Assembly: GCF_003634935.1 (NCBI RefSeq) | Contig: NZ_RBXO01000001.1 | Span: 6,101,501 to 6,165,500 of the forward strand | Length of the DNA stretch: 64,000 bases | From: Saccharothrix australiensis | GTDB lineage: Bacteria > Actinomycetota > Actinomycetes > Mycobacteriales > Pseudonocardiaceae | Reading direction: 5' to 3' | Shown: piece after piece, positions 417-23,143 of the stretch | Layout of the letters: every line of letters starts with the position of its first letter | Position numbering within the stretch: position 1 is the first letter of the stretch | Position numbers and translations under genes: made by a program | Notes under the pieces: model-generated | The model's input: only the letters and a program-made list of their open reading frames with translations | Told to the model about the DNA's origin: nothing | Database searches by the model: none

Positions 417-3400
417 TCAGGTGTGCGGTACGTCGACGTCGCACTCGCGCCAGTCCTGGTCGGCCGGGTGCGCCGCGACCCGCAGGTTGTGCGCCGCCAC
501 GACCGTGTGCGGGTGGTCGGGGCCCAGGAACTCGACGCAGTCGGCGTGCGCCTCCGCGATCAGCACGGCCGCGCCGTCCACGTCGCCCGCCGCCGCGCGG
601 ACCCGCGCCTCGTCCACGGCGGCGGCCAGCGTCCACGGGTGCGTGTCGCCGAGCCGCGCGCGCAGCGCCTCCGCCGCCGCCGCGACGTGGTCGACCGCGC
701 CGGCGTGGTCGCCCGCCGCGCCCAGCGCCAGGCCGAGCCCGAGCCGGCACAGCGCCGTGAACGGGTGGTCCTCCCGGATGCCCTCCAGCGCGCGGAAGCC
801 GTCCAGGGCGGTCCGCGCCAGCTCCACCGCCAGCTCCGGGTCGCCGCCCACGCGCCGGTGGTCGGCGGAGAAGCTCAGCGCGCAGCCCAGCGTGTACGGG
901 TGGTCGGGCCCGATGACCTCGCGGTAGTCCCGCAGCGCCTTCCCGGTGCGCTCCTTCGCCGCCCGCGTCCGCCCGGCGAGGCGCAGCGCGATGGCGTAGT
1001 TCCAGTGCACGCCGATCTGCGTCTGGTTCAGCTCGGGGCGCACGCTCTGGAGCTTCTGCGACGCGCCGAGCAGCGATTCCAGCGCCTCCGGGTAGCGGCC
1101 CAGCTCCCGCTGGTAGAGCCCGATCTGGGCGAGCGTGACCCAGGTGAACTCGTCGCCTTCGCCGAACAGCCGCCGCCGTCGGCTGAAGTTGTCCTCCTCC
1201 AGCGCGAGCGCGCCGGCCGCGTCACCGGACAGGAACATCGACGACGCCAGGTTGTTCGCCGCGCGGCGCGTGTCCGGGTGGTCCTCGCCGAGCACCATCC
1301 GCAGATTCTCCCAGGTCGACTGGTCCTCCACCAGCGCTTCCGCGAACAGGCCGAGACCGCGCAGGTCGCCGCCGCGACCGCGCGCGGTGATCAGCGGCTG
1401 CGGGTGCGTCAGGTCGAGGGCGCGGCGCTGCTGGGCCAGCGCGAGGTCGTCGAGCCGCAGCGCTTCCGCCGGTTCGCCCAGCACGCGGTGCACGTTGGCG
1501 AGCTGGGTGGCGAGCCGGTTGCGCAGCGGGTCGTCCGCGCCGAACCGCTCGGTCCACGACGTCAGCAGCTCGTGGCCGGGTTGCAGCGCGGCGCGCCGCA
1601 CGCCCGCGCCGCCGTCGGTGAACAGGAACCGCACCTGGTTGACCAGCCAGCGCCGCACCTTCGGGTCGGCGCTGCGCACCGCGCCGGACGGGAACACGTG
1701 CCGCTGGAGCTCCTGGAACCGGGTGCGCCGGGTCGGCGACTTGTCCTCCACCTCGGTCGGCGCGTAGGCGGCGAGCGCGGCCAGCACGTCCGCCTGCCGC
1801 GCCTCCCGCTCCGGCGCGGGCATCCCGGCGCGCAGCGCCCGCTGCACGACCCGGTGCAGCCGCAGCGAGTACTGGTCGCCCCAGTCGACGCGGAACAGCC
1901 CGTGCCGCGCGCCCGCCCACAGCACCCGGTCGACCTCGCCCGCGTCCAGCTCCAGCGGCGCGGCGTCCACGCCGCCGACGGCCACCAGCCGCTCCAGGAA
2001 GGCGGGCGACCGCACCAGGCCGAGCGCGACGCCCTGCGGCGACAGGAACGCGCACAGCCGCGCGAGCAGCACCGCCACCCGGCCGGTCGCGTCCTCGCGC
2101 AGCGACTCGACCACGACGTCGACCACGCGCGCGACACCGTCCTTTTCGGACCGGCCGAGCCGGTCGAAGAAGGTGCGCACCGCCCACCCGGCCGCGTCGG
2201 CGTCCGTCGAGCCGGCGGCGCGCTCGGACCGCACGGCCTCGGCGAGCCACGCGGCGGCCAGGTCGAGCGCGAGCGGCAGGTGCCGCACCTCGGCCGCGAC
2301 CCGGCGCGCGTCCACCGCGGTCAGGCCGCGCACGCGGTCCAGCAGCAGCGCGACGCTGTCCGCCGCGACCATCGGCGCCAGCTCCACCGACGGCGCGGCG
2401 GCGGAGTTCGAGGTGATCAGCACGTGTCCGGTCGAGCCCGGCGGCAGCAGGTCGGCGATCGCGTCGAGGTCGTCGGCGTTGTCGTAGACCAGCAGGAACC
2501 GGGCGTAGGACGGGTCGTTGGCCAGCCGGTCCAGCGCGGTCAGCGACCCGAAGTCGGTGGAGCCGGGCAGCCGCAGGCGCACCGCCAGCTCGGCCAGGCC
2601 CACCTGGACGGACTGCCGGTCCTGCGCCGACAGCCACCACACGGCGTCGTAGTCGGCGGAGAACCGGTAGGCGTACTCCAGGGCCAGCTCGCTCTTGCCG
2701 ACGCCCGCCTCGCCGTTCAGCGTCACGACCGCGCGCTCGTCGCCCGCGTCGACGAACTCGTCGCGCAGCGCCTCGACGTCCTCGTCCCGACCGATGAAAC
2801 CGCGGTGGCGCGGCGGCAGCCGGAACACCGCCGGGTCCGCGCCCGGCACGCGCATCGGCGCGTCGTGCGCGGTGCCGGGCCGGTCGATCAGGCCGAAGTG
2901 GCCGAGCAGCTTGGCGCTCAACGTCTCCGGCAGGTGCTCGTGCACCGACAGGCCGTCGTCGGACGGCTCGTCCTCGGCCAGCAGCAGCCGCAGCACCGCG
3001 ACACCCGCGGGCAGCGCGACCTCGCGCAGGTGCGGCGAGACCAGCACCACCACGCCCGCGGGCACACCGCCCTCCCGGTCCAGCTCGGCGAGCGGCACGA
3101 CCTGCGCGCCGGCGCGGGCCAGCTGGCCGCGCACCCAGTCGGCCCAGGGCCGGTCGGGCGGCGCGTGCACGACGGCCACCCGGTCCGCGTCGTCGGCGGC
3201 GGCGGCGAGCCCGAACACGCGGCGGTAGCGGGCGCGCAGCACGGACGGCACCGGCGGGCACGCGGTGACCGCGCCGCCGCTGACCGCCGCCGCCAGCCTG
3301 GCGTACTGCGCCTCCAGCGCGCCGCCGCCGCTCGGTTCCTCGGCCAGGATCGCGAGCAGCGGGTCGAACGCGTCGAACGGCCGGTACGGTATCTCCACCG

Positions 3401-4133
3401 TGCCGCCGTCCGGCACGCGTTTCGCCTGCCCCGCCAGCAGTTCGGCGAACGCCGCGTGGATCTGCGACCGGATGCGCCGCGCGCGGGACTGCTCGGCGTC
3501 GTCGAACAGCGTCGCCACCGGCACGACGTCGATGCGGATCGGCGCGCGCCTGCGCACCTGCGCGGCCAGGTCGGCGGCGTCCGCGATGGCCCTCGGGCGC
3601 GGCCGGAAGCACACCACGGCCAGCTCGCACAGCGTCGCGACCAGCGTCAGGGACTCCTCGACCGCGCCCGTCGGCGCGTCGATCAGCACCTGGTCGTAGT
3701 CCGATTCCGCCAGGCGGGACCGCAACTCCGCGATCGCGCCCGCGTCGCCGTGGCTCGTCTCCGGCCGCGGGCGGCCCGCCGCGTCGGTCGGCATCGGCGC
3801 CACCACGTCGATGTGGCCGGTCGCGTCCGGCAGGGGCAGCGCGAACCGCTCCACGACCGGCGGCGGTTCCTCGTCGCGGGCCGGGTCGGCGAGGTACGCG
3901 GCGAGCAGCGCGCGGCCGAGCCCGTCCGGCAAAGCCTGCCGCGACACCAGGAACGGCTCCAGGTACTCGCGCACGCGCGGCACCTCGGAACCCCAGTCCA
4001 CCACCAGCACCCGCTGCCCCGCGCTGGACAGCACCCACGCCAGGTTCGCCACCGCGCTGGTGCGCCCGGTGCCGCCGGCGGCCGACAGGAACGCCGTCAC
4101 ACCGGTGTGGCCGTGCCCAGCGGGGCTGCTCAT
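417..4133 (-). CDS. fxsT: FxSxx-COOH system ATPase/tetratricopeptide repeat protein FxsT
   Basis: This 1238-residue protein combines several signalling modules. Residues about 15-40 carry a MinD/ParA-like deviant Walker A (AAGGTGRTSA) in an otherwise intact N-terminal ATPase domain. Residues about 300-400 look like a divergent TIR-like segment. An NB-ARC-type STAND ATPase follows, with the P-loop GEAGVGKS near residue 470, and the last 400 residues are TPR repeats with the usual bacterial LGxDHPxT pattern. FxsT-family proteins are known companions of FxSxx-COOH peptides, but their biochemical role is unsettled; a sensory or scaffolding ATPase is an inference. The start was set at the ATG at 4133 because GGAG lies six bases upstream. 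An open extension of 23 residues is less likely. It lies 83 bases after fxsA on the same strand. Confidence 0.86.
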   Translation of the reverse strand: MSSPAGHGHTGVTAFLSAAGGTGRTSAVANLAWVLSSAGQRVLVVDWGSEVPRVREYLEPFLVSRQALPDGLGRALLAAYLADPARDEEPPPVVERFALPLPDATGHIDVVAPMPTDAAGRPRPETSHGDAGAIAELRSRLAESDYDQVLIDAPTGAVEESLTLVATLCELAVVCFRPRPRAIADAADLAAQVRRRAPIRIDVVPVATLFDDAEQSRARRIRSQIHAAFAELLAGQAKRVPDGGTVEIPYRPFDAFDPLLAILAEEPSGGGALEAQYARLAAAVSGGAVTACPPVPSVLRARYRRVFGLAAAADDADRVAVVHAPPDRPWADWVRGQLARAGAQVVPLAELDREGGVPAGVVVLVSPHLREVALPAGVAVLRLLLAEDEPSDDGLSVHEHLPETLSAKLLGHFGLIDRPGTAHDAPMRVPGADPAVFRLPPRHRGFIGRDEDVEALRDEFVDAGDERAVVTLNGEAGVGKSELALEYAYRFSADYDAVWWLSAQDRQSVQVGLAELAVRLRLPGSTDFGSLTALDRLANDPSYARFLLVYDNADDLDAIADLLPPGSTGHVLITSNSAAAPSVELAPMVAADSVALLLDRVRGLTAVDARRVAAEVRHLPLALDLAAAWLAEAVRSERAAGSTDADAAGWAVRTFFDRLGRSEKDGVARVVDVVVESLREDATGRVAVLLARLCAFLSPQGVALGLVRSPAFLERLVAVGGVDAAPLELDAGEVDRVLWAGARHGLFRVDWGDQYSLRLHRVVQRALRAGMPAPEREARQADVLAALAAYAPTEVEDKSPTRRTRFQELQRHVFPSGAVRSADPKVRRWLVNQVRFLFTDGGAGVRRAALQPGHELLTSWTERFGADDPLRNRLATQLANVHRVLGEPAEALRLDDLALAQQRRALDLTHPQPLITARGRGGDLRGLGLFAEALVEDQSTWENLRMVLGEDHPDTRRAANNLASSMFLSGDAAGALALEEDNFSRRRRLFGEGDEFTWVTLAQIGLYQRELGRYPEALESLLGASQKLQSVRPELNQTQIGVHWNYAIALRLAGRTRAAKERTGKALRDYREVIGPDHPYTLGCALSFSADHRRVGGDPELAVELARTALDGFRALEGIREDHPFTALCRLGLGLALGAAGDHAGAVDHVAAAAEALRARLGDTHPWTLAAAVDEARVRAAAGDVDGAAVLIAEAHADCVEFLGPDHPHTVVAAHNLRVAAHPADQDWRECDVDVPHT

Positions 4134-4216
4134 CGACTGCTCCAGATCGGCGGTGCGGTGGTGGGTCGCGCGGTGGCGCCCGCCCGCGGTGACGCGGACC
4201 ACCGCGGTGGACGGGG

Positions 4217-4384
4217 CTACAGCGAGCTCTCGAACGCGGCGAACCGGTTCGGCATCTCCGCGTTCTCGGCGAGGATGCGGTGCAGGGCGGCGCGCAGCGC
4301 GGTGTCGGGCAGCTCCGCCACCCTGGCCAGGTCGATCCCGGTCACGTCGAGGAGTTCGGACTCCAGGACGGGTTCTTCAGCCAT
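4217..4384 (-). CDS. fxsA: FxSxx-COOH precursor peptide FxsA
   Basis: The product is a 55-residue peptide with an acidic N-terminal half and the C-terminus AAFESSL. Its last five residues, F-E-S-S-L, match the family signature Phe-x-Ser-x-x-COOH exactly, which identifies it as the presumed ribosomal precursor for the neighbouring radical SAM enzyme. The start is the ATG at 4384, with GAGGGGG nine bases upstream. Another ATG eight bases earlier is out of frame. The gene heads the minus-strand unit with fxsT and faces fxsB across a 160-base gap. In this family the radical SAM enzyme is thought to cross-link side chains near the C-terminus, so Phe51 and Ser53 are candidate modified residues by analogy. 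The mature product and its function are not predictable from the sequence. Confidence 0.88.
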   Translation of the reverse strand: MAEEPVLESELLDVTGIDLARVAELPDTALRAALHRILAENAEMPNRFAAFESSL

Positions 4385-4544
4385 CTCGCCATACCCCCTC
4401 ACCGCAAAGCTGCGGGTGCGTCCGCAGTGCGCCAACCCCATCCTAGTGCGAGGCAACGGGGAATGCGGGGAATCCTCCGATTGGCGGAAGTAGCGGCCGG
4501 GCCGATGTGTTTGGTTTGTCTGGGGCGGATGGATCGGGGGATCG
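4385..4544. promoter_or_regulatory. Divergent promoter region of fxsA and fxsB
   Basis: This 160-base gap separates the two arms of the peptide locus, so both must be transcribed from it. I see a short inverted repeat TCCG-attgg-CGGA near 4476-4488 but no consensus -35/-10 pair for either direction. No local regulator gene is present. Confidence 0.4.
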
Positions 4545-5666
4545 ATGGAAGCGCTGCCGTTCCGCCAGTTCGTGGTGAAGGTCCACGGCCGCTGCAACCT
4601 CGCCTGCGACTACTGCTACGTCTACGAACTGGCCGACCAGGGCTGGCGCTCCCGACCGCGCGCGATGTCGCCGCGAGTGGTCGCGCACACCGCCGAACGG
4701 GTGGCGCGGCACGTGCGCGCGCACGGGCTGTCCGAGGTGGAAGTCGTGCTGCACGGCGGTGAACCGCTCCTCGCCGGCCCGGCGGCGGTCGAGGGGCTGG
4801 TGCGCCGCTTCCGCGCGGCGGTGCCCGCGCGGGTGCGGTTCTCCGTGCAGACCAACGGAACCCTGCTCGACCGCGCTTTCCTGGCGTTGCTCGCACGACT
4901 GGACGTGCGGGTCGGGGTGAGCGTCGACGGCGTCGGGGAAACGCACGACCGGCACCGCGTGCGGCCCGACGGAACCGGCAGTTGGGCATCGGTCGAGTCG
5001 GGTTTGCGATTGCTGGCCGACGAGTTCCGCGCGGTGTACGGCGGTCTGTTGTGCGTGATCGACGTGCGCGCCGATCCGGTGCGCGCCTACGAGTCGCTGC
5101 GCGAATTCCGGCCGCCGGTGGTGGATTTCCTGCTGCCGCACGGCAACTGGGCCGCGCCGCCGCCGGCACGGGTCGCCGGGGCCCCCGAAACGCCTTACGC
5201 GGATTGGTTGACGGCGTTGTTCGACCACTGGTACCCGCGGCCGGGAACACGGGTCCGGTTGTTCGAGGAGTTGCTGAACGTGGTGCTGGGCGGGCGTTCC
5301 CGCGTCGAAGGCGTGGGATTGACGCCGAGCGCGCAGGTGGTGGTGGAAACGGACGGCGCGATTTCCGTGTCGGACATCCTGGCGTCCTCCTCGCCCGCCG
5401 CGGCGGCGACCGGTCTGCACGTGCTGCACGACGACTTCGACCGGGCGCTGGCCCTCCCGGAGGTCGTCGCGGCGCGGTCGGGGCGCGCCGGGCTGCCGGA
5501 CGCCTGCCGGTCCTGCGCGGTGGTGGCGGCCTGCGGCGGCGGGCTGCGGGCCCACCGGTTCACCGGGGACGGTTTCGACCGCCCGTCGGTGTACTGCCCG
5601 GACCTGTACCGGTTGATCGCGCACGTGCGGGCGCGCGTGGCGGCCGACCTGGCGGAGCCGGCGTGA
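4545..5666 (+). CDS. fxsB: FxsB-family radical SAM/SPASM peptide-modifying enzyme
   Basis: This 373-residue radical SAM enzyme has the cluster motif CNLACDYC at residues 17-24, i.e. Cys17, Cys21 and Cys24 binding the 4Fe-4S cluster that cleaves S-adenosylmethionine. The glycine-rich SAM-contact segment VVLHGGEPLL follows at about residue 67. The C-terminal quarter has the SPASM pattern (CRSCAVVAACGGG, then YCPD) for auxiliary iron-sulfur clusters. Together with the FxSxx peptide encoded divergently, this identifies the FxsB family, which is expected to install a radical-based crosslink on FxsA. The stop overlaps the start of the next gene by four bases (GTGA), so the two enzymes are translationally coupled. 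In some organisms the two are one fused protein; here they are separate. Confidence 0.9.
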   Translation: MEALPFRQFVVKVHGRCNLACDYCYVYELADQGWRSRPRAMSPRVVAHTAERVARHVRAHGLSEVEVVLHGGEPLLAGPAAVEGLVRRFRAAVPARVRFSVQTNGTLLDRAFLALLARLDVRVGVSVDGVGETHDRHRVRPDGTGSWASVESGLRLLADEFRAVYGGLLCVIDVRADPVRAYESLREFRPPVVDFLLPHGNWAAPPPARVAGAPETPYADWLTALFDHWYPRPGTRVRLFEELLNVVLGGRSRVEGVGLTPSAQVVVETDGAISVSDILASSSPAAAATGLHVLHDDFDRALALPEVVAARSGRAGLPDACRSCAVVAACGGGLRAHRFTGDGFDRPSVYCPDLYRLIAHVRARVAADLAEPA

Positions 5667-7078: not shown

Positions 7079-10000
7079 ATGCTCAACGCCGACGGCCGGT
7101 TGGTGCACTCCCCGGCGGACCTGGTGGACCTGCTGGAGTGCGCGCACCGCAGCCGCCTCACCCTGGCGGCGGCCCGCGGGCTGCCGGGCGCGCCGCGCCC
7201 GGACGCCGGCCGGGACACCCTGGCCGCCCGGCACGGCATCGCGCACGAGCTGGCCGTCCTGGAGCGGTTCAAGGCGCGGGGCGACGTGGTGGAGATCGCC
7301 CAGCCGCCGCCGGACCACGAGGCGCTGACGCGGGCCGCGCTGGCGACGCGGCGGGCCATCGACGCCGGCGCGCCGGTGATCTACCAGGGCGTCTTCTACG
7401 CCGACGGTTTCGTCGGCCGCGCGGACTTCCTGGTGCGCACCGACCGCGGGTACGAGCCGCACGACGCCAAGCTCGCCCGGCACGCGACGCCGGGTGCGGT
7501 CGTGCAGCTGACGGCCTACGCGGGCGCGCTGGGCGTCGACGCCGGGCCGGGGATGCGCCTGCTGCTGGGCGACGGCGGCGTCCGGACGTTCCGGGTGGCC
7601 GACTTCCTGCCGCTGGTGCGCGACCTCCAGCACCGGCTGCGGGAGCGCACCGCCGGCACCCCCACCCTGCCGGAGCGGCTGTGGGACGACGAGCGGCCCG
7701 CGTGCGCGACCTGCCGGTTCGCGCGGCACTGCGCGGACGGCCGGGCACGGGACCGCGACCTGTCGCTGGTCGCGGGCATCCGGGCCGACCAGCGGCGCAA
7801 GCTCGTGGCGGCCGGGCTGGGCACGATCGACGCGCTGGCGAACGCGACCGCGCGGGAGCGGCCGTCGACCATGTCCGCCGCCACGTTCACCGGCCTGCGC
7901 GCGCAGGCCGCGTTGCAGGTCGTCCAGGACGTCTCGCGCACGGCCGACGACCCGGTCGGCAAGGTCGCGTACGAGGTCGTCGCGCCGGAAGCGCTGGCCG
8001 AGCTGCCCGCGCCCAGTCCGGGCGACCTGTTCTTCGACATGGAGGGCGACCCGTACGCGCTCGACGGCGAGGGGCTGGAGTACCTGTTCGGGGTGGTGAC
8101 GCCGGACGAGGCGTTCACGCCGTTCTGGGCGCACACCCGGCCGCAGGAGAAGGCCGCGTTCGAGCGGTTCGTGGACTTCGCGGTGGCGCGGCTGGCCGAG
8201 CACCCCGGAGCGCACGTCTACCACTACGCGCCCTACGAGGTGAACGCGCTGAAGCGGCTCGCCGCGCTGCACGGCACGCGCGAGGAGGCCGTGGACCACC
8301 TGCTGCGGTCCGGGGCGCTGGTGGACTTGTACGCCGTGGTGCGAAAGGCGTTGCGGGTGTCGCAGCGGTCGTACTCGATCAAGTACCTGGAGCCGCTGTA
8401 CATGCCGTCGGCGCGGGACGGCGACGTGACCACCGCCGCGTCCAGCATCGAGGCGTACGAGGAGTTCCTGACGCTGACCGGGGCCGGGGACGTGGCCCGC
8501 GCGGAGGAGGTGCTCGACGGCATCGCGGAGTACAACGCGTACGACTGCGTCTCCACCCGCCGGCTGTACCGGTTCCTGCTGGAGGTGCGGGACGAGGCGG
8601 GCATCGAGCCGCACGTGCCCGAGGTGTCCTTCGTGGACGAGGTCGAGGACGAGGTGGCGGCGCGGCGGCGGGCCGAGCGCGCCGAGCGGATCGCCGCCGT
8701 GGTCGACCCGCTGCTGGCGGGGCTGCCGGACAACCCGGCCGACCACTCACCCGACGACCGGGCGCGGGCGCTGCTCGCGGCGGCGGTCGGCTACCACCGG
8801 CGCGAGACGAACCCCGCCTGGTGGGACTTCTTCCGGCAGGTGGCCGCGCCGCTGTCGGAGCTGGAGTCCGACGGCGCGTGCGCGGTGCCGGTGTCGGTGC
8901 GGGCGGAGGACTGGGCGATGCCGTCCGGCCGCGTGCGCAAGGCCAAGCGGGAGGTGCGGGTGCGGTGCGACCCGGACCGCCCGCACCCGTTCGCGGCGGG
9001 CGACCAGGTGCGGCTGCTGTACCCCGGCACGCCGAACCGCACGCGCGACGCCGTCGTGCTCGGCGAGTCCGCGGAGGACATCGCGCTGCTGGAGAGCGCG
9101 GCACCGGACGACGTCGACGGCGACCGGCCGGTGGCGGTGCTGCCGGGCAGCCCGGTTCGGCCCTCGCCCAAGGACGAGGCGGTGTACGAGCTGGCCCGCG
9201 CGGTGGTGGACGGCCTGCCCGAGCTGCCGCCGCACCCCGGCGTCGACCTGGTCCGGCGCACGCCGCCGCGGGTGGGCGGCGCGCTGCCGCGCACGGGCGA
9301 CGTCATCGCCGACGTGATCGCCGCGGTCGACGCGCTGGAGGGGTCGACGCTGGCCGTGCAGGGCCCGCCGGGCGCGGGCAAGACCTACCTCGCCGGGCGG
9401 CTCATCGCGCACCTGGTGCGCGGCGGGCGTTCCGTCGGGGTGACGTCGAACAGCCACAAGGCCGTGGAGAACGTGCTCGCCGCGGCGCAGGCGGCCGGGC
9501 GCGCGTCGGGTGTGCCGATCCCGACCGCCAAACGGCCCAAGGGCGCTCCGGCGAAGGACTGCTCCTGGGAGCAGCCGAAGGACAACGCGGCACTGATCCG
9601 CTGGCGGCACGACCAGGGCGCGGGGCACCTCGTCGGCGGCACCGCGTGGACGTTCGCCAACGCCGCGCTGCGCGAGCGGCCGTTCGACGTGCTGATCGTG
9701 GACGAGGCCGGGCAGTTCGCGCTGGCGGACGCGCTGGCGGTGTCGACGTGCGCGCGGAACCTGGTGCTGCTGGGCGATCCGCAGCAGCTACCGCAGGTGG
9801 TGCAGGGCACGCACCCGGCGGGCGCGGACGCGTCCGCCCTGGGGCACCTCATCGGCGACGCGGACGTGATCCCGGCCGAGCTGGGGTACTTCCTCGACCA
9901 GACCCGCCGGATGCACCCCGACGTGTGCGAGCCCGTGTCGCGGCTGTCCTACGCCGGGCTGCTCGGCGCGCACCCCAGCACGGCGTCGCGCGGGATCTCG

Positions 10001-10528
10001 GGGCTGGCGTCCGGTGTGTACGTGCACGAGGTGGAGCACCGGCACAACACCACCAGCTCGCCCGAGGAGGCGCGGGCCGTGGTGGACGTCGTGCGGTCGC
10101 TGATGGGTCGCATGTGGACGGACGGGCCGGGCGCGCGTGCGCTGGACGACTCGGACGTGCTCGTCGTCGCGCCGTACAACATGCAGGTGCGGCTGGTGCG
10201 GCGCGAGCTGGAGCGCGCCGGCTACGAGCACGTCCGGGTCGGCACGGTGGACCGGTTCCAGGGGCAGGAGGCGCCGGTGGTCGTCACCACCATGACGTCG
10301 TCCGCGGCGGTGGACCTGCCGCGCGGCCTGGACTTCCTGCTGTCGCGCAACCGGTTGAACGTGGCGCTGTCGCGTGCGCAGGGCGTGGCCGTCGTGGTGT
10401 GCTCGCCGCGGCTGGTCGAGGCCGACATCCGCGGTGTGGACCAGCTCCGGCTGGTGTCCGGGATGGTCGGGCTGGTGGCCGACGCCCGCCCGTGGCCCAT
10501 CGACGGCATCTATGCCCAACCGCTATGA
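7079..10528 (+). CDS. TM0106-family RecB/Cas4-like nuclease fused to a superfamily 1 helicase
   Basis: This 1149-residue protein joins three activities. The N-terminal 250 residues are a RecB/Cas4-like nuclease, with the core GRADFLV and YEPHDAKLA (Asp and Lys of the catalytic motif). A Cys in LECAHR and a CATCRFARHC cluster together look like the four ligands of an Fe-S cluster. A DEDD/RNase H-like segment follows (FFDMEGDPY, near residue 318). The C-terminal half is an SF1 helicase with Walker A GPPGAGKT near residue 763, DEAGQ as motif II, and DRFQGQE and LSRNRLNVALSRA as motifs V-VI. Such proteins are thought to process nucleic acid ends, but their role is unproven. The gene stands alone, with 270 bases upstream and no CRISPR or toxin partner. 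Confidence 0.86.
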   Translation: MLNADGRLVHSPADLVDLLECAHRSRLTLAAARGLPGAPRPDAGRDTLAARHGIAHELAVLERFKARGDVVEIAQPPPDHEALTRAALATRRAIDAGAPVIYQGVFYADGFVGRADFLVRTDRGYEPHDAKLARHATPGAVVQLTAYAGALGVDAGPGMRLLLGDGGVRTFRVADFLPLVRDLQHRLRERTAGTPTLPERLWDDERPACATCRFARHCADGRARDRDLSLVAGIRADQRRKLVAAGLGTIDALANATARERPSTMSAATFTGLRAQAALQVVQDVSRTADDPVGKVAYEVVAPEALAELPAPSPGDLFFDMEGDPYALDGEGLEYLFGVVTPDEAFTPFWAHTRPQEKAAFERFVDFAVARLAEHPGAHVYHYAPYEVNALKRLAALHGTREEAVDHLLRSGALVDLYAVVRKALRVSQRSYSIKYLEPLYMPSARDGDVTTAASSIEAYEEFLTLTGAGDVARAEEVLDGIAEYNAYDCVSTRRLYRFLLEVRDEAGIEPHVPEVSFVDEVEDEVAARRRAERAERIAAVVDPLLAGLPDNPADHSPDDRARALLAAAVGYHRRETNPAWWDFFRQVAAPLSELESDGACAVPVSVRAEDWAMPSGRVRKAKREVRVRCDPDRPHPFAAGDQVRLLYPGTPNRTRDAVVLGESAEDIALLESAAPDDVDGDRPVAVLPGSPVRPSPKDEAVYELARAVVDGLPELPPHPGVDLVRRTPPRVGGALPRTGDVIADVIAAVDALEGSTLAVQGPPGAGKTYLAGRLIAHLVRGGRSVGVTSNSHKAVENVLAAAQAAGRASGVPIPTAKRPKGAPAKDCSWEQPKDNAALIRWRHDQGAGHLVGGTAWTFANAALRERPFDVLIVDEAGQFALADALAVSTCARNLVLLGDPQQLPQVVQGTHPAGADASALGHLIGDADVIPAELGYFLDQTRRMHPDVCEPVSRLSYAGLLGAHPSTASRGISGLASGVYVHEVEHRHNTTSSPEEARAVVDVVRSLMGRMWTDGPGARALDDSDVLVVAPYNMQVRLVRRELERAGYEHVRVGTVDRFQGQEAPVVVTTMTSSAAVDLPRGLDFLLSRNRLNVALSRAQGVAVVVCSPRLVEADIRGVDQLRLVSGMVGLVADARPWPIDGIYAQPL

Positions 10529-16257: not shown

Positions 16258-16827
16258 ATGGGGTACAACTTGCCGGTGAGACGGATCTTGGCGTGCGCGC
16301 TGCTGCTGGCGACGGCCGGGTGCGCGACCCCGGTCGCGGGAAAGCCGGTGGCCGCGCCGACCACCACCACCACCGCCGCCGCGGCACCCGAGGTCGTGCG
16401 GTGGATGGACAACTTCTGCGGTGTCGCGAACTTCCTGGTCGCGTCCGGCGGCGTCCAGCTCGACCGGACGCCCGCCGACCCGGTCGCCGCGAAGAAGTCC
16501 GTCAGCGACGCCCTCGGGCGCGTGGTGGACGTGCTCAACGTGGCCGTACACGACCTCGGCGAGCTGACCCCGGCGCCCGTGCCCGCCGCCGACACCGCCG
16601 TCGAGGTGCTCGTCGAACCCCTGTCCAGGGCCCGTGACAAGTTCGTCTCCGCGAAGTCCACCGTGGACGGGGCGGCGGAGCTGACCTCGGACGTGTTCAA
16701 CTCGATCGCGCAGGACCTGACCGAGGCCGTGACGGTGATGAACGACGCCGTGGAGAAGATGTCCGTCGTCTCGCTGCCCGAGGAGTTCACCGACGCCGCC
16801 GACCAGGCCGCCAACTGTAAGCGGTGA
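16258..16827 (+). CDS. Secreted lipoprotein of unknown function upstream of lanM
   Basis: The 189-residue protein has a signal sequence (RRILACALLLATAGC) with a lipobox Cys at residue 22, a Thr/Ala-rich spacer, and an exported domain of about 150 residues. That domain is predicted mostly helical, with one early Cys (NFCGVANF) and a Cys near the C-terminus (AANCKR). I see no catalytic motif. The ATG at 16258 was chosen; a GTG at 16276 would give an equally good signal peptide. Its end is 179 bases before the LanM start on the same strand, so it may share a transcript with the synthetase. An immunity or membrane-sensing role there would be speculation. Confidence 0.75.
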   Translation: MGYNLPVRRILACALLLATAGCATPVAGKPVAAPTTTTTAAAAPEVVRWMDNFCGVANFLVASGGVQLDRTPADPVAAKKSVSDALGRVVDVLNVAVHDLGELTPAPVPAADTAVEVLVEPLSRARDKFVSAKSTVDGAAELTSDVFNSIAQDLTEAVTVMNDAVEKMSVVSLPEEFTDAADQAANCKR

Positions 16828-17006: not shown

Positions 17007-19931
17007 ATGTGCGAGCCGCTGTCGCGTGACACGTTGGGCGACGTGATCCCGTCCGCCGTAGACCGGCTCCCCGCCTCCTGGTGGCACCGCGGCGTGCGGT
17101 CGGGCACCCCGGACCCGGACGCCCCGCGAGGGCGGCCGGCGTGGGCCGCGTTCGTGGAACGCGCCACCGCGACCGCGGCCCACGAACACTTCACCGGCGG
17201 CGGCTGGGACGACGCGTTCGCGTTCGCCCTGCGCCCGCTGGTGCTCGCCGCCCGCGCCGAGGACCCCCGGCTGGACGACGACTTCGCCCGCCGCCTCGGC
17301 CACCGGCTGGCCCGCGTCGCCGCGCGCGCCCTGGTGCTGGAGCTGAACCTCCGGCGCCTCGCGGGCCGGCTGGAGGGCGACACGCCGCACGAGCGGTTCG
17401 CCGACTTCGTGCGGCGGCTGGACCTCGCGGAGCTGTGCGCGAAGTACCCGGTGCTCGCCCGCCTGCTCGGGCAGGCGTGCCTGCACGCCGTCCAGGCGCA
17501 GCGCGAACTGCTCGACCGGCTCGCCGAGGACCGCCCCGCGATCGTGCGCGACCTGCTGGGCGGCCGCGACCCCGGTCCGGTGGTCTCCGTCGAGACCGGC
17601 CGGGGCGACGCCCACCAGCGCGGGCGCGCCGTGGCGGTGCTGACGTTCCAGGACGGCAGGCGGGTCGTCTACAAGCCGCGCCCGGTCGCGCTGCACGCCG
17701 CGTTCGCCGGGTTGCTGGCGTGGTACGACGGCCACACTGGGCTGGGCCTGCGGGTGCCGCGCGCGCTGGTGCGGCCCGGCCACGGCTGGCTGGAGTTCGT
17801 CGAGCACGCGCCGTGCGCCGACGTCGCCGAGGTCGGCCGCTTCTACCACCGGCTCGGCGCGCTGATCGCGCTGCTGTACGCGGTGGACGGCACGGACATG
17901 CACTACGAGAACCTGATCGCGTGCGGCGACCAGCCGGTGCTGGTGGACGTCGAGACGCTGTTCCACCCCACCGTCGGCGTCGCGCCCGACCCGGCGGCGC
18001 GGGCGCTGGCCCGCTCGGTGCACCGCACGGCCGTCCTGCCCCACGTGCTGCTGGGCGAGCACGGCGCGCTGGACATCGGCGGGGTGGGCGGCGACCACGG
18101 CGACCGGTTCCCGGCGGACGGCGTGGCGTGGCGGCACCCCGGCACGGACCGGATGCGCCTGGTGCGCGAGCCCGTCCCGCTGCCGCCCGCGCCGAACCGG
18201 CCGACCGTGCTAGGCGAGGAGGCCGAGCCCGCCGACTACCAGGGCGCGCTGCTGGCCGGGTTCCGCGCCGGCTACGACGCCCTCTACGACCACCGCGACG
18301 AGCTGCTCGGCGAGGACGGGCTGCTGCGCGCGTTCGCCGACCTGCCGGTGCGGTTCGTGCCGCGCATGACCCAGCTGTACGCGACGCTGCTGGACGAGTC
18401 GACCCACCCGGACGCGCTGCGCGGCGCGCGGGACCGCGAGCTGGCGCTGGACCTGCTGTGGGACGAGTCCGCCGGGGAGGACGTGCTGCGCGCCCTGGTG
18501 CCGCACGAGCTGACCGACCTGTGGGCGGGCGACGTGCCGCTGTTCACGACCCGGCCGGGCAGCCGGGACGTCTGGTCGGCGACCGGCGAGCGGCTGCCCG
18601 ACCTGCTGCCGGTGACCGGCCTCCAGGCCGCGTCGGCCAAGATCGCCGCCCTGGACGAGGTGGACCGGCACGAGCAGCAGTGGCTGATCAGCGCCGCGCT
18701 GGCCGGTCGGCCGCGACCGGTGGACCACCGCACCGGCGCGGGTGTGCCCGCGCCGGTGGAGGCGGGCGTGCCGGACCCGCAGCGGCTGCTCGGCGCGGCG
18801 TGCGCCGTCGCGGACGAGGTGCTGGCGCGGGCGAGCGCCGACGGCAGGCGCGTCAACTGGGTCGGCCTGGAGCTGGTGGACGACCGGCACTGGGCGGTGG
18901 CCGCGATGGGCGCGGGCCTGTCCAACGGCTACACCGGGGTGGCGTTGTTCCTGGCGCAGCTCGGTTCGCTGACCGGCGCCGCCCGCTACACCGAGTTCGC
19001 GCGCGACGCGCTCGCGCCGGTGCCGGGGCTGCTGCGCGCGTTCGCCGCCGACCCGGAGTTGGCGGCCGCCGTGGGCGGCGGCGCGTTCCACGGGCTGGGC
19101 GGCATCTGCTACGCGTTGGCGCGCTTGGCGAACCTGCTCGACGACGGCGACATCGCCGGGTGGCTGGCCGAGGCCGTCGACGTCGCGGCGACCGTCGAAG
19201 CGGCCGGTGCGGAACCGGCGAGCATCGTGGAGGGCTGCGCGGGCGGGCTGGCCGCGATGCTGGCCGTGCACGCGGAGGCCGGGCTGCCCGCCGCCGACCG
19301 GCTGGCCCGCCGCTACGCCGAGCGGCTGCTGACCGCGGAACCGGCGGGCGACGGTTTCGCGCGCGGTCGGGCGGGCGTCGGCTGGGCCGCGCTGCGCTAC
19401 GCGCGGGCCCGCCGGGACACCCGCCTCGGCGTCCTCGGGCGCGCCCACCTGCGGGCGGACCGTGCGCTGCGGCAACGGCTGCTCGACGTGGCGGAGGCCG
19501 ACCACAGCTGGTGCTCCGGCCTGTCCGGCGCGGTGCTCGCCCATTCGGCCCACCCCGATCAACCGGTCGACACCTACACGCTGCACCTCGACCGGTGCCT
19601 GAACGCCTTGGCGGTGCACGAACCCCTGCGCGACCTGAGCCTGTGCCACGGTGAGCTGGGCGTCCTCGAATCGCTGGCCGTGCTCGCCGAGCGCGGCCAC
19701 GACCTGGCGAGGGCGATGCTGACCCGGCGCGCCGGTCTCGTGCTCGGCGCGCTGGACCAGTACGGGGCCCGGTGCGGCACACCCGGTGGGGTGCCGTCGG
19801 CCGGTCTGCTGACCGGCCTGTCCGGGATCGGCTACGGCCTGCTCCGCCTCGGTTTCCCCGAGCGGGCGCCCTCGGTGCTCCTGCTCGAAAGCCCTGCAAA
19901 TCCCTACCCTCGCGAGGAGAAACACCGATGA
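17007..19931 (+). CDS. lanM: Type II lanthipeptide synthetase (LanM)
   Basis: This 974-residue bifunctional enzyme has an N-terminal dehydratase (DUF4135), with the phosphotransfer core VVYKPRPVALH and GTDMHYENLI...LVDVETLFHP, which phosphorylates Ser/Thr and eliminates phosphate. The C-terminal LanC-like cyclase starts near residue 590 and retains the zinc ligands: Cys in WCSGLSGAV and Cys-His in LCHGELGVLE. Both halves therefore look active, and dehydroamino acids could be joined to Cys thiols. The start is the ATG at 17007 with GGGGGCG upstream. The frame is open back to a GTG at 16824, but that stretch is Pro/Ala/Arg low-complexity and probably untranslated. The gene overlaps a 69-residue peptide gene by four bases (ATGA). 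No LanT transporter or protease is adjacent. Confidence 0.88.
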   Translation: MCEPLSRDTLGDVIPSAVDRLPASWWHRGVRSGTPDPDAPRGRPAWAAFVERATATAAHEHFTGGGWDDAFAFALRPLVLAARAEDPRLDDDFARRLGHRLARVAARALVLELNLRRLAGRLEGDTPHERFADFVRRLDLAELCAKYPVLARLLGQACLHAVQAQRELLDRLAEDRPAIVRDLLGGRDPGPVVSVETGRGDAHQRGRAVAVLTFQDGRRVVYKPRPVALHAAFAGLLAWYDGHTGLGLRVPRALVRPGHGWLEFVEHAPCADVAEVGRFYHRLGALIALLYAVDGTDMHYENLIACGDQPVLVDVETLFHPTVGVAPDPAARALARSVHRTAVLPHVLLGEHGALDIGGVGGDHGDRFPADGVAWRHPGTDRMRLVREPVPLPPAPNRPTVLGEEAEPADYQGALLAGFRAGYDALYDHRDELLGEDGLLRAFADLPVRFVPRMTQLYATLLDESTHPDALRGARDRELALDLLWDESAGEDVLRALVPHELTDLWAGDVPLFTTRPGSRDVWSATGERLPDLLPVTGLQAASAKIAALDEVDRHEQQWLISAALAGRPRPVDHRTGAGVPAPVEAGVPDPQRLLGAACAVADEVLARASADGRRVNWVGLELVDDRHWAVAAMGAGLSNGYTGVALFLAQLGSLTGAARYTEFARDALAPVPGLLRAFAADPELAAAVGGGAFHGLGGICYALARLANLLDDGDIAGWLAEAVDVAATVEAAGAEPASIVEGCAGGLAAMLAVHAEAGLPAADRLARRYAERLLTAEPAGDGFARGRAGVGWAALRYARARRDTRLGVLGRAHLRADRALRQRLLDVAEADHSWCSGLSGAVLAHSAHPDQPVDTYTLHLDRCLNALAVHEPLRDLSLCHGELGVLESLAVLAERGHDLARAMLTRRAGLVLGALDQYGARCGTPGGVPSAGLLTGLSGIGYGLLRLGFPERAPSVLLLESPANPYPREEKHR

Positions 19932-20137
19932 TCGACGCCGACCGCGACGAGGTCGCCACCTGGCACGACGACCAGGACGGCGACCACCCCGCCGGGGAGA
20001 TGGCGCTGCACCGCAAGTCCAGGGCAGGAGCGCGGGCGCGTGCGCTGGCCGGCCTGACCCTGGCCGTCGGCGCGTACGCGGTGGTCACCGCGGGCCTCGC
20101 CAACAGCACCTCGGTGAGCGCGCCCGTCATCTCGTGA
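19928..20137 (+). CDS. Cys-free 69-residue peptide coupled to lanM (candidate substrate or membrane partner)
   Basis: The ATG overlaps the lanM stop (ATGA), so synthesis is tied to the synthetase. The peptide has an acidic, His-rich first part (DEVATWHDDQDGDHPAGEM), a basic stretch (HRKSRAGARAR), one predicted membrane segment of about 20 residues (ALAGLTLAVGAYAVVTAGLA) and a short Ser/Thr-rich tail (NSTSVSAPVIS). There is no cysteine, so classical lanthionine rings cannot form within it. It could be a substrate that is only dehydrated, a peptide linked to another thiol, or a membrane protein not modified at all. I do not know a characterised homologue. It is followed by a strong terminator, which closes the lanM unit. 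Confidence 0.72.
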   Translation: MIDADRDEVATWHDDQDGDHPAGEMALHRKSRAGARARALAGLTLAVGAYAVVTAGLANSTSVSAPVIS

Positions 20138-20154
20138 CGCGCGCGTGACCCCGA

Positions 20155-20197
20155 CGCCGGACTGCCCGTCCTGACTGGGGGTGCGGGCAGTCCGGCG
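20155..20197 (+). terminator. Terminator closing the lanM unit
   Basis: A perfect 14-base-pair stem, CGCCGGACTGCCCG pairing with CGGGCAGTCCGGCG around a 15-base loop, lies 18 bases after the small peptide gene and 25 bases before the regulator start. It separates the synthetase transcript from the LuxR gene. Confidence 0.8.
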
Positions 20198-20221
20198 TGC
20201 GCTTGGCTAAGGTCGGCACCC

Positions 20222-23143
20222 ATGCAGACCCGCGCGCCGGTCGTGGTCGGCCGCGACGCCGAGCTACGGGTGCTCGACCAGGCCCTGTCCGACGCCGGCG
20301 CGCGACGCGGGCGCGCCGTGTTCCTCGTCGGCGAGCCCGGCATCGGCAAGACGCGGCTGGCGCGGGTGACGGCGGGCGCGGCGTTCGACCGCGGGATGCG
20401 GGTGCTGCGCGGGCGCGGTTCGACCATCGGGCCGATGGTGCCGTTCCGGCCGTTGACCGAGGCGCTGATGTCGCTGGTGCGCGGCGGCGACGGGCCGGAC
20501 CCCCGGCAGCTCGGCCCCTACCAGCCCGTGCTGGGCCGGCTGGTGCCCGAGTGGGGCGGCGAGGGGCCGGGCGGCGACTCGGTCGTGGTCCTCGCGGAGG
20601 CGGTGCTGCGCCTGCTGGTGGTGATCGGCCGCGTCAAGCCGTGCCTGCTGGTGCTGGAGGACCTGCACGACTCGGACGCCGAGACGCTGGCGGTCATCGA
20701 CTACCTGGTGGACAACCTCGACGCGGTGCCCGCGGCGCTGCTGGTCACCACCCGCGCCGACCCCGGACCGACGCTCGACGTGGTCCGCCTCGCGGCGCAG
20801 CGGGACGCGGGCACGCTGCTGGAGCTGCGCAGGCTCGACGAGGCGCAGGTGCGCCGGATGGTCGCGTCGTGCCTGGAGGTCGACGCCGCCGAGGTGCCCG
20901 ACGCGGTGGCCGAGCGCCTGTGGGCGGACAGCGCGGGCAACCCGTTCGTCGTCGAGGAGCTGCTGCACAGCCTGGTCGGCGGCGGCCTGCTGGTGCGCGG
21001 GCCGGACGGCTGGCGGGTGCTGGGCGAGCTGCGCGTCGACGTCCCGACGGCCCTGGTGCGCTCCATCGCCCACCGCACCGACCGCCTCGGCCCGCAGGGC
21101 CGCGAGCTGCTCTCCGTCGCCGCCGTGCTGGGCCACCGGTTCCCGCTCTCGGTGCTGCGCGCGGTGACCGGCATGGACGACCGGACCCTGCTGTCCCACC
21201 TGCACGCGGGCGTGGCCGCGCAACTGGTGACGCCGGACGAGCCGGTGCCCGACTGGTACGCGTTCCGCCACCCGCTGACGGCGGAGGCGCTGCTCGCGCA
21301 GCTCACGCCGACCCACCGCGCGGACGTGTCGCGGCGGACCGCCGACGCCGTCGAGCGCCTGCACCCCGGCCTGCCCGGCGAGTGGTGCCCGCTCGTCGCG
21401 TCCCTGCGCCTGGACGCGGGCGAGACGGCGGAGGCGGGCGCGCTGCTGGCGGAAGCCGGTCGCCGCGCGCTGGCTGACGGGGCGGCCGGTTCGGCGGTGC
21501 GCCTGCTCGACCAGGCGCACCGGCTGCCCGCGGGCCTGGTCGACGTGGGCGTCCGGGCCGACGTGCTGGCGTCCCTGCTGCCCGCGCTCGGCGAGGCCGG
21601 CCAGTTCGAGCGGGCGTTCAAGCTGGTCGACGCGGTCGCCGAGCTGAGCGCCGCGGGCCTGGACCGCATCCGGCGGGCCGAGCTGCACACCGGGCTGGCG
21701 CGGGTGGCGTGGCTGGCGGGCCGGTGCTCGGAGGGCATGGCGCAGGTGGACGCGGCACGCGCCCTGCTCGGCCCGGACGACGACGCGCACCACGCGCGCG
21801 TCGACGCGGTGGCGGCGTTCCTCACCCTCGACGCCCAGCGCCCGGACCGCATCGCGTCCGCCGAGGTGCTGGCCCGCAAGGCCGCCGAGGCCGCCCGCCG
21901 GGCCGCGCTGCCGCAGGTCGGCTGCGAGGCGTGGCAGCTGCTGGGCATCCTGGCGCGCGAGCGGGACCTGGGCGAGGCGGCGGACCACTTCACCAGGGCC
22001 AGGCAGCTGGCCGAGGAGCACCGGCTGCCCATCCAGCGCACGTACGCGGCGGTCCGGCTGGCGGGCATCGACTGGTTGGCCGAGGGTTCGTCGGAGCGGC
22101 TGGTGGAGGCGCGCGAGGAGGCACTGCGCGTGGGCGCGATCACGGTGGCGTACAACGTGGACGCGATCCTCGGGCTGGACGCCGTGCTGCGCGGGCAGTA
22201 CGCCGCGGCGGAGGAGAGGCTGGCCCGCTGCGGCGAGGGCACCCGACGCCTGCACCTGGACGCCATGACGCTCTACGTGCTGATGGCGCAGGCCACCGCC
22301 GCGGCGCACCGGGGCAGGCGGTCCGAGCTGGACGCCGCGCTCGCGGAGTTCGACGACCTGGGCGGCGTCGGCTCGCAGGAGCGCCCGCTCTGCTTCGGCC
22401 TCGCCCGCGCGTTCTGCGCGCTGCTGGAGGAGGACCGGGACCTGGCGGCGCAGGACCTGGCCCGCGCCGTGTCCTACGAGGCGGAGGCGCCGACCACGTT
22501 CCACCTGTCCGGTACGCACGGCCTGAGCCTGCTGCTGGCCGCGCTGTCCGGCGAGCTGGACCACGCGGGCTACCGGCTGGCCACGCGCTCGGCTGCCGCG
22601 GGCATGCGGTGGAACCGGGTGTTCGGCCAGTTCGCGCTGGCCGTCCTGCTGGGCCGCGACGGGCGGGAGGCCGAGGCCGCGGCGGCGGTGCGGGCGGCGA
22701 AGGACGCCGCGACCATCTACCCGCTCGCCCGGCACCTGGGCCTGCGGCTGGTGGCGGAGGCCGCGATCGGCGACGGCTGGGGTGAGCCGGTCGGCTGGCT
22801 GCGCGGCGCGGAGGAGCACTTCCACCAGTCCGGCGTGCCCGCGGTGGCCAGCGCCTGCCGCGGCCTGCTCAGGCAGCTGGGCGCCTCGGTGCCCCAGCGG
22901 CGGACGGGCTCGGACCAGGTGCCGCGCGAGCTGCGGGCGCTGGGCGTCACCGTGCGGGAGTTCGAGGTGCTCCGGCTCCTCGCGGGCAGGCTGGGCAACA
23001 AGGCCATCGCGACCCGCCTGCACATCTCGCCGCGCACGGTGGAGAAGCACGTGGCGAGCCTGATCACCAAGACCGCCCGACCGGACCGCGAGTCCCTGAG
23101 CAGCCTGGCGGCCGACCTCGGACCCCCCGACCGGCCCTGGTAG
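20222..23143 (+). CDS. Large ATP-binding LuxR-family regulator (LAL type)
   Basis: This 973-residue regulator has an N-terminal AAA/NTPase domain with Walker A GEPGIGKTRLA near residue 38 and Walker B CLLVLEDLHDSD near 150. A long helical middle of TPR-like character follows (many paired Ala/Leu helices, residues 400-880). The C-terminus has a LuxR-type DNA-binding domain (VTVREFEVLRLLAGRLGNKAIATRLHISPRTVEKHVASL). LAL proteins are commonly pathway activators of secondary-metabolite clusters. It follows the lanM unit on the same strand after a terminator, so control of that locus is plausible but not shown. The ATG at 20222 gives the P-loop its usual position. The HTH lies about 55 residues from the end, as expected. 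Confidence 0.88.
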   Translation: MQTRAPVVVGRDAELRVLDQALSDAGARRGRAVFLVGEPGIGKTRLARVTAGAAFDRGMRVLRGRGSTIGPMVPFRPLTEALMSLVRGGDGPDPRQLGPYQPVLGRLVPEWGGEGPGGDSVVVLAEAVLRLLVVIGRVKPCLLVLEDLHDSDAETLAVIDYLVDNLDAVPAALLVTTRADPGPTLDVVRLAAQRDAGTLLELRRLDEAQVRRMVASCLEVDAAEVPDAVAERLWADSAGNPFVVEELLHSLVGGGLLVRGPDGWRVLGELRVDVPTALVRSIAHRTDRLGPQGRELLSVAAVLGHRFPLSVLRAVTGMDDRTLLSHLHAGVAAQLVTPDEPVPDWYAFRHPLTAEALLAQLTPTHRADVSRRTADAVERLHPGLPGEWCPLVASLRLDAGETAEAGALLAEAGRRALADGAAGSAVRLLDQAHRLPAGLVDVGVRADVLASLLPALGEAGQFERAFKLVDAVAELSAAGLDRIRRAELHTGLARVAWLAGRCSEGMAQVDAARALLGPDDDAHHARVDAVAAFLTLDAQRPDRIASAEVLARKAAEAARRAALPQVGCEAWQLLGILARERDLGEAADHFTRARQLAEEHRLPIQRTYAAVRLAGIDWLAEGSSERLVEAREEALRVGAITVAYNVDAILGLDAVLRGQYAAAEERLARCGEGTRRLHLDAMTLYVLMAQATAAAHRGRRSELDAALAEFDDLGGVGSQERPLCFGLARAFCALLEEDRDLAAQDLARAVSYEAEAPTTFHLSGTHGLSLLLAALSGELDHAGYRLATRSAAAGMRWNRVFGQFALAVLLGRDGREAEAAAAVRAAKDAATIYPLARHLGLRLVAEAAIGDGWGEPVGWLRGAEEHFHQSGVPAVASACRGLLRQLGASVPQRRTGSDQVPRELRALGVTVREFEVLRLLAGRLGNKAIATRLHISPRTVEKHVASLITKTARPDRESLSSLAADLGPPDRPW

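Follow-up and report, generated by a model that had tools for sequence, protein, structure and literature searches.

What does a class II lanthipeptide synthetase make when the peptide gene coupled to its own encodes no cysteine (Cys)? The question is raised by a locus of Saccharothrix australiensis (contig NZ_RBXO01000001.1), where lanM, the gene for such a synthetase, overlaps a gene for a Cys-free peptide of 69 residues within the 64,000-nucleotide stretch of DNA analyzed here, which we call the window. An earlier note on this DNA had proposed that the peptide is dehydrated only, is joined to a thiol from elsewhere, or tethers the synthetase to the membrane. We consider it probable that the peptide is a LanM substrate, dehydrated in its Ser/Thr tail without formation of an internal thioether ring, and that it works with a co-conserved LAL regulator.

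The synthetase is a full-length LanM with its dehydratase motifs and all three cyclase zinc ligands, as the earlier note had read it. It scores 706.9 bits against TIGR03897 (cut-off 304), 441.6 bits against PF13575 (DUF4135) and 98.4 bits against PF05147 (LANC_like), and its relatives of solved structure, by sequence, are LicM2 (6st5, 302 bits) and CylM (5dzt). A pairwise alignment to CylM 5dzt places the equivalents of D252, H254, K274, D347, H349, N352, D364, R506 and T512 in the window protein, where the equivalents of the zinc ligands C875, C911 and H912 are likewise complete; the roles of the catalytic residues are taken from part of the CylM study (PMC4550811). The synthetase is not a LanKC of the class III SapB/AmfS-type cassettes, as NF038151 gives 35 bits against a cut-off of 575. 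An in-frame GTG at 16824 is a possible alternative start of lanM.

The features that the earlier note had ascribed to the small gene, namely the ATGA coupling, the 69 Cys-free residues, the membrane segment and the tail NSTSVSAPVIS, can all be located in the sequence (Table 1). The ATGA shared by the end of lanM and the start of the peptide gene lies at 19928, and the hydrophobic segment LAGLTLAVGAYAVVTAGLA, which follows a basic stretch, has a 19-residue mean of 1.83. Pfam and NCBIfam scans assign the window peptide to no family; scans of its relatives (six in NCBIfam, five in Pfam) returned just three NCBIfam matches, far below cut-off (E 0.02-0.12), and a PDB search with one relative found a designed protein as its sole match. 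PADLOC has no match for the window LanM or the peptide and two weak ones for the LAL protein. Because Cys makes up only about 1% of the residues in LanM and LAL proteins, its absence from a single 69-mer is unremarkable; what calls for explanation is that the absence persists beside LanM.

Table 1. Features of the LanM-peptide-LAL locus, in positions of the window.
Feature	Position	Strand	Basis
lanM, class II lanthipeptide synthetase (kinase/lyase dehydratase and LanC-like cyclase)	17007..19931	+	TIGR03897, PF13575, PF05147; PDB relatives
GRGDAHQRG, phosphate-elimination D/H (CylM D252/H254)	17598..17624	+	alignment to CylM
GTDMHYEN ... VDVETLF, kinase D/H/N/D (CylM D347/H349/N352/D364)	17889..17963	+	alignment to CylM
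VRFVPRMTQ, elimination R/T (CylM R506/T512)	18348..18374	+	alignment to CylM
WCSGLSG ... LCHGELG, cyclase zinc ligands Cys/Cys/His, intact in the window	19509..19661	+	alignment
GAGGAG, ribosome-binding-site-like, at the end of lanM, 8 nucleotides upstream of the peptide gene	19914..19919	+	sequence
Cys-free 69-residue peptide: acidic N-terminus, HPAGEM, GARARALAG, hydrophobic stretch, tail NSTSVSAPVIS	19928..20137	+	sequence, family alignment
Strong hairpin 3' of the peptide gene	20154..20198	+	folding, z -2.85
LAL/STAND LuxR-family regulator, AAA_16 ATPase and C-terminal LuxR helix-turn-helix	20222..23143	+	PF13191, PF00196

The pairing of LanM and peptide recurs from whichever gene the search begins. 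Across 390 genomes of the family, every one of the 24 additional genomes in the genus carries the peptide (E <= 2.4e-10), with weaker matches in other genera; 60 match places, reaching E of about 3e-4 with some matches in that range omitted, together with the window gave 61 peptide-chosen loci, every one of which has a LanM upstream on the same strand. Of the 25 genus loci, 22 show precisely the ATGA overlap, and the remaining three (numbered L052, L053 and L055) have a 52-nucleotide gap instead. A set of 50 loci chosen by LanM, from Saccharothrix, Umezawaea, Lentzea, Kribbella, Actinokineospora, Streptomyces, a record labeled 'Nocardia' and a Hydrogenedentota, has the peptide directly downstream in 49, the exception being the distant Hydrogenedentota LanM; many of these 49 genomes are also in the peptide-chosen set, and for three of the loci the peptide start was settled on the same contigs. 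When the final 176 residues of LanM served as query, 140 of 386 family genomes gave matches, and 57 places among these were picked by hand to spread over genera; one turned out to be a duplicate, which left 56 further loci. The peptide is present in 55 of these, 54 by an iterated profile that had absorbed its own matches (those of L195 and L216 being weak) and L231 by eye; L200, with no peptide between LanM and LAL, is the sole exception. The peptide thus stands as a conserved partner of LanM (61/61, 49/50 and 55/56), and a lanM without the small gene, which the earlier note had regarded as evidence against its proposal, occurs once.

The earlier note had also called the peptide the only obvious partner of lanM, which is incorrect, as the LAL gene is equally conserved. 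Its product, at 973 residues, falls within the size of LAL-type proteins (about 950-1000) and has their domains (PF13191, 79.8 bits; PF00196, 36.6 bits), and for its first 426 residues the closest other match in the same genome has 33% identity and 85 bits versus 912. The LAL cluster is found in 61/61 peptide-chosen loci; LAL adjoins LanM in 56/56 of the hand-picked family loci, on the opposite strand in two; and of 18 Streptomyces loci, all but one, on a contig of 3.7 kb, have it beside the LanM-peptide pair. Genes in the 61 loci were called crudely by codon bias and then clustered, and besides LanM, peptide and LAL no gene occurs in more than 24; that one is an upstream lipoprotein-like gene, which the clustering had lumped together with LanM, and the next reaches at most 22. 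Neither a LanT transporter with a peptidase nor a leader protease appears in the conserved unit by this clustering, which included no family-level transporter search. Lentzea neighbors (a membrane protein, ATP-binding cassette genes) were set aside as members of the unit, since they occur in at most 14 of the 61 loci. The fixed LAL partner and the lack of a transporter or protease suggest, by gene neighborhood, that the peptide unit is regulatory and not a locus for an antibiotic.

Beyond the family, 30 of 397 genomes of the order match the first peptide profile (E <= 0.001), 12 of them from other families, and the three of these examined all contain the unit. Across the class, 3 of 394 genomes match a broader profile (E <= 1e-4), with the genome of the window among them and with no LanM seen in another (L241). 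The unit is therefore patchy outside the family, a pattern to be read with caution as both scans score few candidates per genome. In a genus that we take as Streptomyces, the peptide is present in 18 of 295 genomes. The unit spans Propionibacteriales (Kribbella), Pseudonocardiales (Saccharothrix) and Kitasatosporales (Streptomyces).

The 147 peptides of the family share a near-universal order of acidic N-terminus, (H/N/D)PxG, GxRxxALxG and Ser/Thr-bearing tail, and the conserved ALAG within GxRxxALAG could serve as a leader end of the GG/GA type. Every tail has at least two Ser/Thr among its last 15 residues, and [ST][ST]VS occurs within the last 22 residues of 57 peptides; tails are of the STWPTIES type in Kribbella and Thr-rich or SVVS in genus g10 (probably Amycolatopsis). 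Several loci, g10 among them, have two or three tandem, non-identical peptides. Among 231 pairs from 22 genus loci, residues 21-48 (leader and middle) are under purifying selection, with median proportions of nonsynonymous (pN) and synonymous (pS) differences of 0.068 and 0.253. Tandem non-identical copies, a constrained leader and middle, and Ser/Thr in every tail are what a substrate would be expected to display, and we count them in favor of that role. In one genus locus (L052:7677-8090) the family peptide reaches 138 residues in total through a long N-terminal extension rich in Gly and Ala.

Cys is absent from the last 15 residues of 113 of the 147 peptides and present there in 34 (3 of 63 peptide-chosen, 4 of 17 in the LanM-chosen multi-genus set, 26 of 64 from the family by LanM, 1 of 3 from the order), with Cys anywhere in 45. 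Peptides of the genus are Cys-free except for a terminal Cys (GMPC) in L048 and L051 and a Cys in the hydrophobic segment of L132. Tails with Cys fall mostly in one related TTCC clade of a 104-LanM tree (22 rows, of which 18 have TCC tails and 4 have Cys tails of other kinds; SH-aLRT 100), and the Cys-free form is common to whole clades. Since a single distant LanM on a long branch roots the tree, which came with a long-branch warning, we make no claim on the direction of change between the two forms. In L216 and L231, deep-branching second LanMs of genus g42 accompany peptides ending in SVSAPCLGYG, SVSGPCLGYG or SASGPCFGYG plus a short end, that is, an SVSAP-like motif followed by Cys.

The dehydratase residues of LanM are kept almost throughout. 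In 137 aligned LanMs, D347, D364 and E366 (the last our own addition to the CylM residue list rather than from PMC4550811) are kept in 133, the other four being gaps; R506 is found in 134 (three gaps), Thr or Ser at 512 in 132, and position 274 is Lys in 96, Arg in 36 and Gln in 1. Since both the kinase and the lyase residues of CylM are retained, net dehydration rather than stable phosphorylation would be expected. In two LanMs with TCC-tailed peptides (L214, L217), single zinc ligands show His in place of Cys or Cys in place of His, which could still bind zinc.

A branch in Streptomyces has kept the dehydratase and lost the zinc site, which makes it a natural comparison for separating dehydration from cyclization. 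All three ligands are lost in four Streptomyces LanMs of the LanM-chosen set, and by sequence the plasmid-encoded LanMs of S. fungicidicus and Streptomyces sp. CL7 likewise appear zinc-less. On S. fungicidicus p1 the zinc-less pair is CNQ36_RS33805/RS33800. Among the 18 Streptomyces loci found by peptide query, 14 have lost both zinc Cys and 4 keep Cys/Cys/His; the His ligand is also lost in 9 of the 14, the substitutes at the Cys ligands are scattered (S, T, A, V, H, Y at one; G, A, R, H at the other), and the ten dehydratase positions are unchanged in all 14. Tails are Cys-free in 18/18 as far as seen (in L269, the aligned part alone). With the zinc site decayed, the dehydratase positions kept and the tails Cys-free, dehydration alone is the favored reading for this branch.

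For the window, we propose the following course. LanM would bind the conserved leader through its PxGE and GxRxxALxG motifs, phosphorylate Thr and Ser of the tail (NSTSVSAP) and eliminate the phosphate to give dehydrobutyrine (Dhb) and dehydroalanine (Dha); as the peptide has no Cys, no internal lanthionine ring would form. The modified peptide would then act with the LAL protein, most likely serving as a signal or else modulating this STAND protein. We infer each of these steps, from leader binding and the sites of dehydration to the fate of Dha and Dhb and the regulatory role. Should the window peptide undergo dehydration alone, or receive a thiol from outside, both being possible, LanM enzymes would have a role beyond ring making, and a wide set of actinobacteria would carry a small peptide-plus-regulator unit, possibly a switch for specialized metabolism.

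Several observations weigh against this proposal. All three zinc ligands are Cys/Cys/His in 131 of the 137 LanMs, the window's included, and the LanC His, which is His in just 86 of 137, is kept in the window LanM as well; simple dehydration would need neither. The unit can carry Cys, as 19 of 147 peptides contain TCC, and since the peptide in the same position has a TTCC tail in a related LanM clade, some relatives may be ordinary lanthipeptides. Within the genus the whole-peptide median dN/dS is 0.54, the tail (residues 49-69) evolves fast (pN 0.283, pS 0.306), and residues 1-20 show pN of 0.119 versus pS of 0.098. The link to LAL is one of gene neighborhood only. For Streptomyces, the peptide used as query came from a zinc-less locus, which biases the 14:4 ratio. 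Moreover, the leader motif of every peptide from the 14 zinc-less loci includes one Cys (it reads ACAR, with ACSR for L279), a feature shared by L276 among the four zinc-keeping loci; His at ligand positions of the L269, L270 and L274 LanMs might still bind metal, and metal-independent class III cyclases exist (PMC10604976, in part), so that loss of zinc is no proof of lost cyclization. The expectations of the earlier note fared unevenly in this respect: the Ser/Thr tail does recur, with rapid change outside its motif among genus loci; most tails lack Cys and a substantial minority have it; and a Cys-containing precursor in relatives, which that note had set against its own proposal, was found in part, in the TTCC-tail clade at the same position.

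Among the alternatives, the one that fares best concerns the regulator, which might merely drive the operon or its surroundings, with the product of LanM and peptide unrelated to LAL sensing. LAL proteins are common as pathway regulators, and nothing direct argues otherwise; the constancy of an LAL of the same subfamily beside the pair in the peptide-chosen, hand-picked and Streptomyces sets counts the other way, and we regard this looser link as possible, though tentative.

Less probable, and in our judgment unlikely, is that the intact zinc cyclase joins the dehydrated tail to an outside thiol, for example mycothiol or cysteine, in the way that mammalian LanCL proteins use glutathione. We keep this open because the zinc site is intact in most members; in the window, the ligands and the LanC His are kept beside a peptide that has no Cys. 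LanCL enzymes catalyze intermolecular addition of glutathione to Dhb peptides, and a zinc-dependent LanC reaction of this kind, between dehydro residues and a thiol from elsewhere, would fit the present alternative (PMC9934072, in part), although LanCL proteins are eukaryotic stand-alone cyclases that act on dehydrated proteins. When Cys was removed from a LanM substrate in Escherichia coli, glutathione adducts formed on Dha (PMC13060382, in part). Fourteen of the 61 loci, all Lentzea-type (L056, L081 and 12 others), have a gene of the glutamate-cysteine ligase family 2 (GCS2) type near the unit, on the downstream side of LAL, one tested member of the cluster scoring 138 bits against PF04107; it is missing in the other 47, including the window. 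Further, glutathione is not bound by NisC or HalM2 (PMC9934072, in part), and the Streptomyces branch lost its zinc site and kept its Cys-free tails. A bolder combination, which we consider rather improbable, is that LanM is both dehydratase and intermolecular thiol ligase, its zinc cyclase joining a thiol of the cell, such as mycothiol, to the Dhb/Dha tail to give a thiol-charged signal for the LAL/STAND protein, and that Streptomyces dropped the thiol step, leaving the dehydrated peptide alone to govern a nonribosomal peptide synthetase (NRPS) cluster.

It is very unlikely that this is an ordinary lanthipeptide system with a Cys-bearing precursor encoded in trans and the 69-mer a paralogue or second component. 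The related clade with TTCC tails and the ability of some LanMs to act on precursors encoded far away (PMC7268733, in part) are in its favor. In the same genome, however, a search with the family alignment gave one strong match, the next (E 0.009) lying inside an open frame of more than 6,000 residues, and the window peptide as query gave one match at E <= 0.001, searches that would miss a Cys peptide with an unrelated leader; Cys-freeness shared by whole clades also speaks against it. Least probable of all is a small membrane protein that anchors or chaperones LanM without being its substrate: a hydrophobic segment behind a basic stretch in many members and the translational coupling to lanM would fit, but g10 homologues lack the segment (19-residue means of 0.55-0.83 in four loci computed, against 1.4-2.2 in the other loci computed), several loci have two or three different tandem peptides, and a Ser/Thr tail that turns into TTCC in a related clade behaves as a substrate would, so the membrane tether of the earlier note finds no support as a general account.

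A dehydrated, ring-free LanM substrate also has to be set beside known systems. Synthetase architecture and catalytic residues are those of class II lanthipeptide systems such as CylM and LicM2, including a LanM with DUF4135 and a LanC-like domain; the differences are a window precursor without core Cys and a conserved unit with LAL and without transporter or protease. Cys-free peptides associated with LanM are already known from other clusters, a point missed by the earlier note; a 2015 study by Zhang and colleagues is said to be a source on such precursors in clusters with both LanM and LanKC and may overlap with the present family. In part, PMC7268733 describes LanM-associated precursors without Cys in LanM+LanKC clusters, which were excluded from its analysis, as well as cyanotins (prochlorosins), some of them Cys-free, and part of PMC11251773 also mentions Cys-free peptides. 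In these cases too, LanM lies beside or acts on Cys-free peptides; the former peptides sit with LanKC, however, and cyanotins are cyanobacterial sets, many far from LanM, whereas here LanM, peptide and LAL form a unit. A mining method in wide use for lanthipeptides rejects any open frame that lacks a core Cys (PMC7268733, in part), and a Cys-free family of this kind would thus be lost to it by design.

Dehydrazoles (LanMbC, CcaM) likewise involve a LanM-type dehydratase that dehydrates without thioether rings (PMC10676384, in part). LanMbC has a zinc-independent class III cyclase fused to DUF4135, and the window LanM instead has zinc ligands and scores above the cut-off of TIGR03897; no YcaO is present in the annotated neighborhoods of two Streptomyces plasmids, with no YcaO family search made elsewhere. 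The points of resemblance with LanM-like proteins of the Clostridium CA_C0082 type are a link to regulation and a missing zinc motif, but those proteins lack conserved catalytic residues and lie beside agr (PMC10301443, in part), in contrast to the intact dehydratase and dedicated peptide found here. We recognized no paper on a LanM-peptide-LAL unit, which is weak evidence of novelty as most subscription journals lay outside the search.

The Streptomyces loci also differ in their surroundings. On plasmids, an NRPS cluster surrounds the zinc-less LanM cassette (L293:2963-37233 and L294), with an acyl carrier protein and a pyridoxal-phosphate enzyme as well. In S. fungicidicus p1 and in pSALBX2 the cassette is flanked on one side by two NRPS genes, a cytochrome P450 and a major facilitator superfamily (MFS) gene, and on the other by response regulators, peptidase E, a phosphopantetheinyl transferase, MbtH, a lone adenylation protein and two LanB-like proteins. 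MFS genes are present in 11 of the 14 zinc-less loci, NRPS-like sequence occurs in two others, and the contig of the last one stops too soon; no MFS, P450 or NRPS was seen in the four zinc-keeping loci, of which just L275 and L277 extend past LAL. In a Streptomyces-type genome, a second family peptide lies beyond LAL on the minus strand (L262:9139-9342), in a locus with one LanM by LanM search.

A hairpin lies between the peptide and LAL genes, and 21 of 25 genus loci carry its core TGGGGGTGCGGGCAG, loop included, unchanged within 300 nucleotides 3' of the peptide gene, perhaps more constancy than a bare terminator would require. The earlier note had a terminator follow at once; the strong structure is there, and a simple scan found no terminator-like site with a T-run, for which reason we dropped that label and speak of a hairpin. 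Rfam has no match in 19900-20300, and other loci also fold strongly downstream of the peptide, in folds made without a shuffle control. Upstream of lanM, the lipoprotein-like gene at 16258-16827 has relatives in 24 of the 61 loci, all within the genus, and has no NCBIfam match.

Elsewhere in the window, about 11 kb from LanM, a second and separate locus of the type that yields ribosomally synthesized and post-translationally modified peptides (417-5666) encodes an FxSxx-COOH system, with a tetratricopeptide-repeat protein on the minus strand (NF040586, 732.8 bits) and an FxsB-family, cyclophane-forming radical S-adenosylmethionine maturase at 4545-5666 (TIGR04269, 424 bits). Between the two loci, at 7079-10528, lies the gene for a large protein that combines a RecB-like nuclease domain of the TM0106 family with a match to an IGHMBP2-like helicase.

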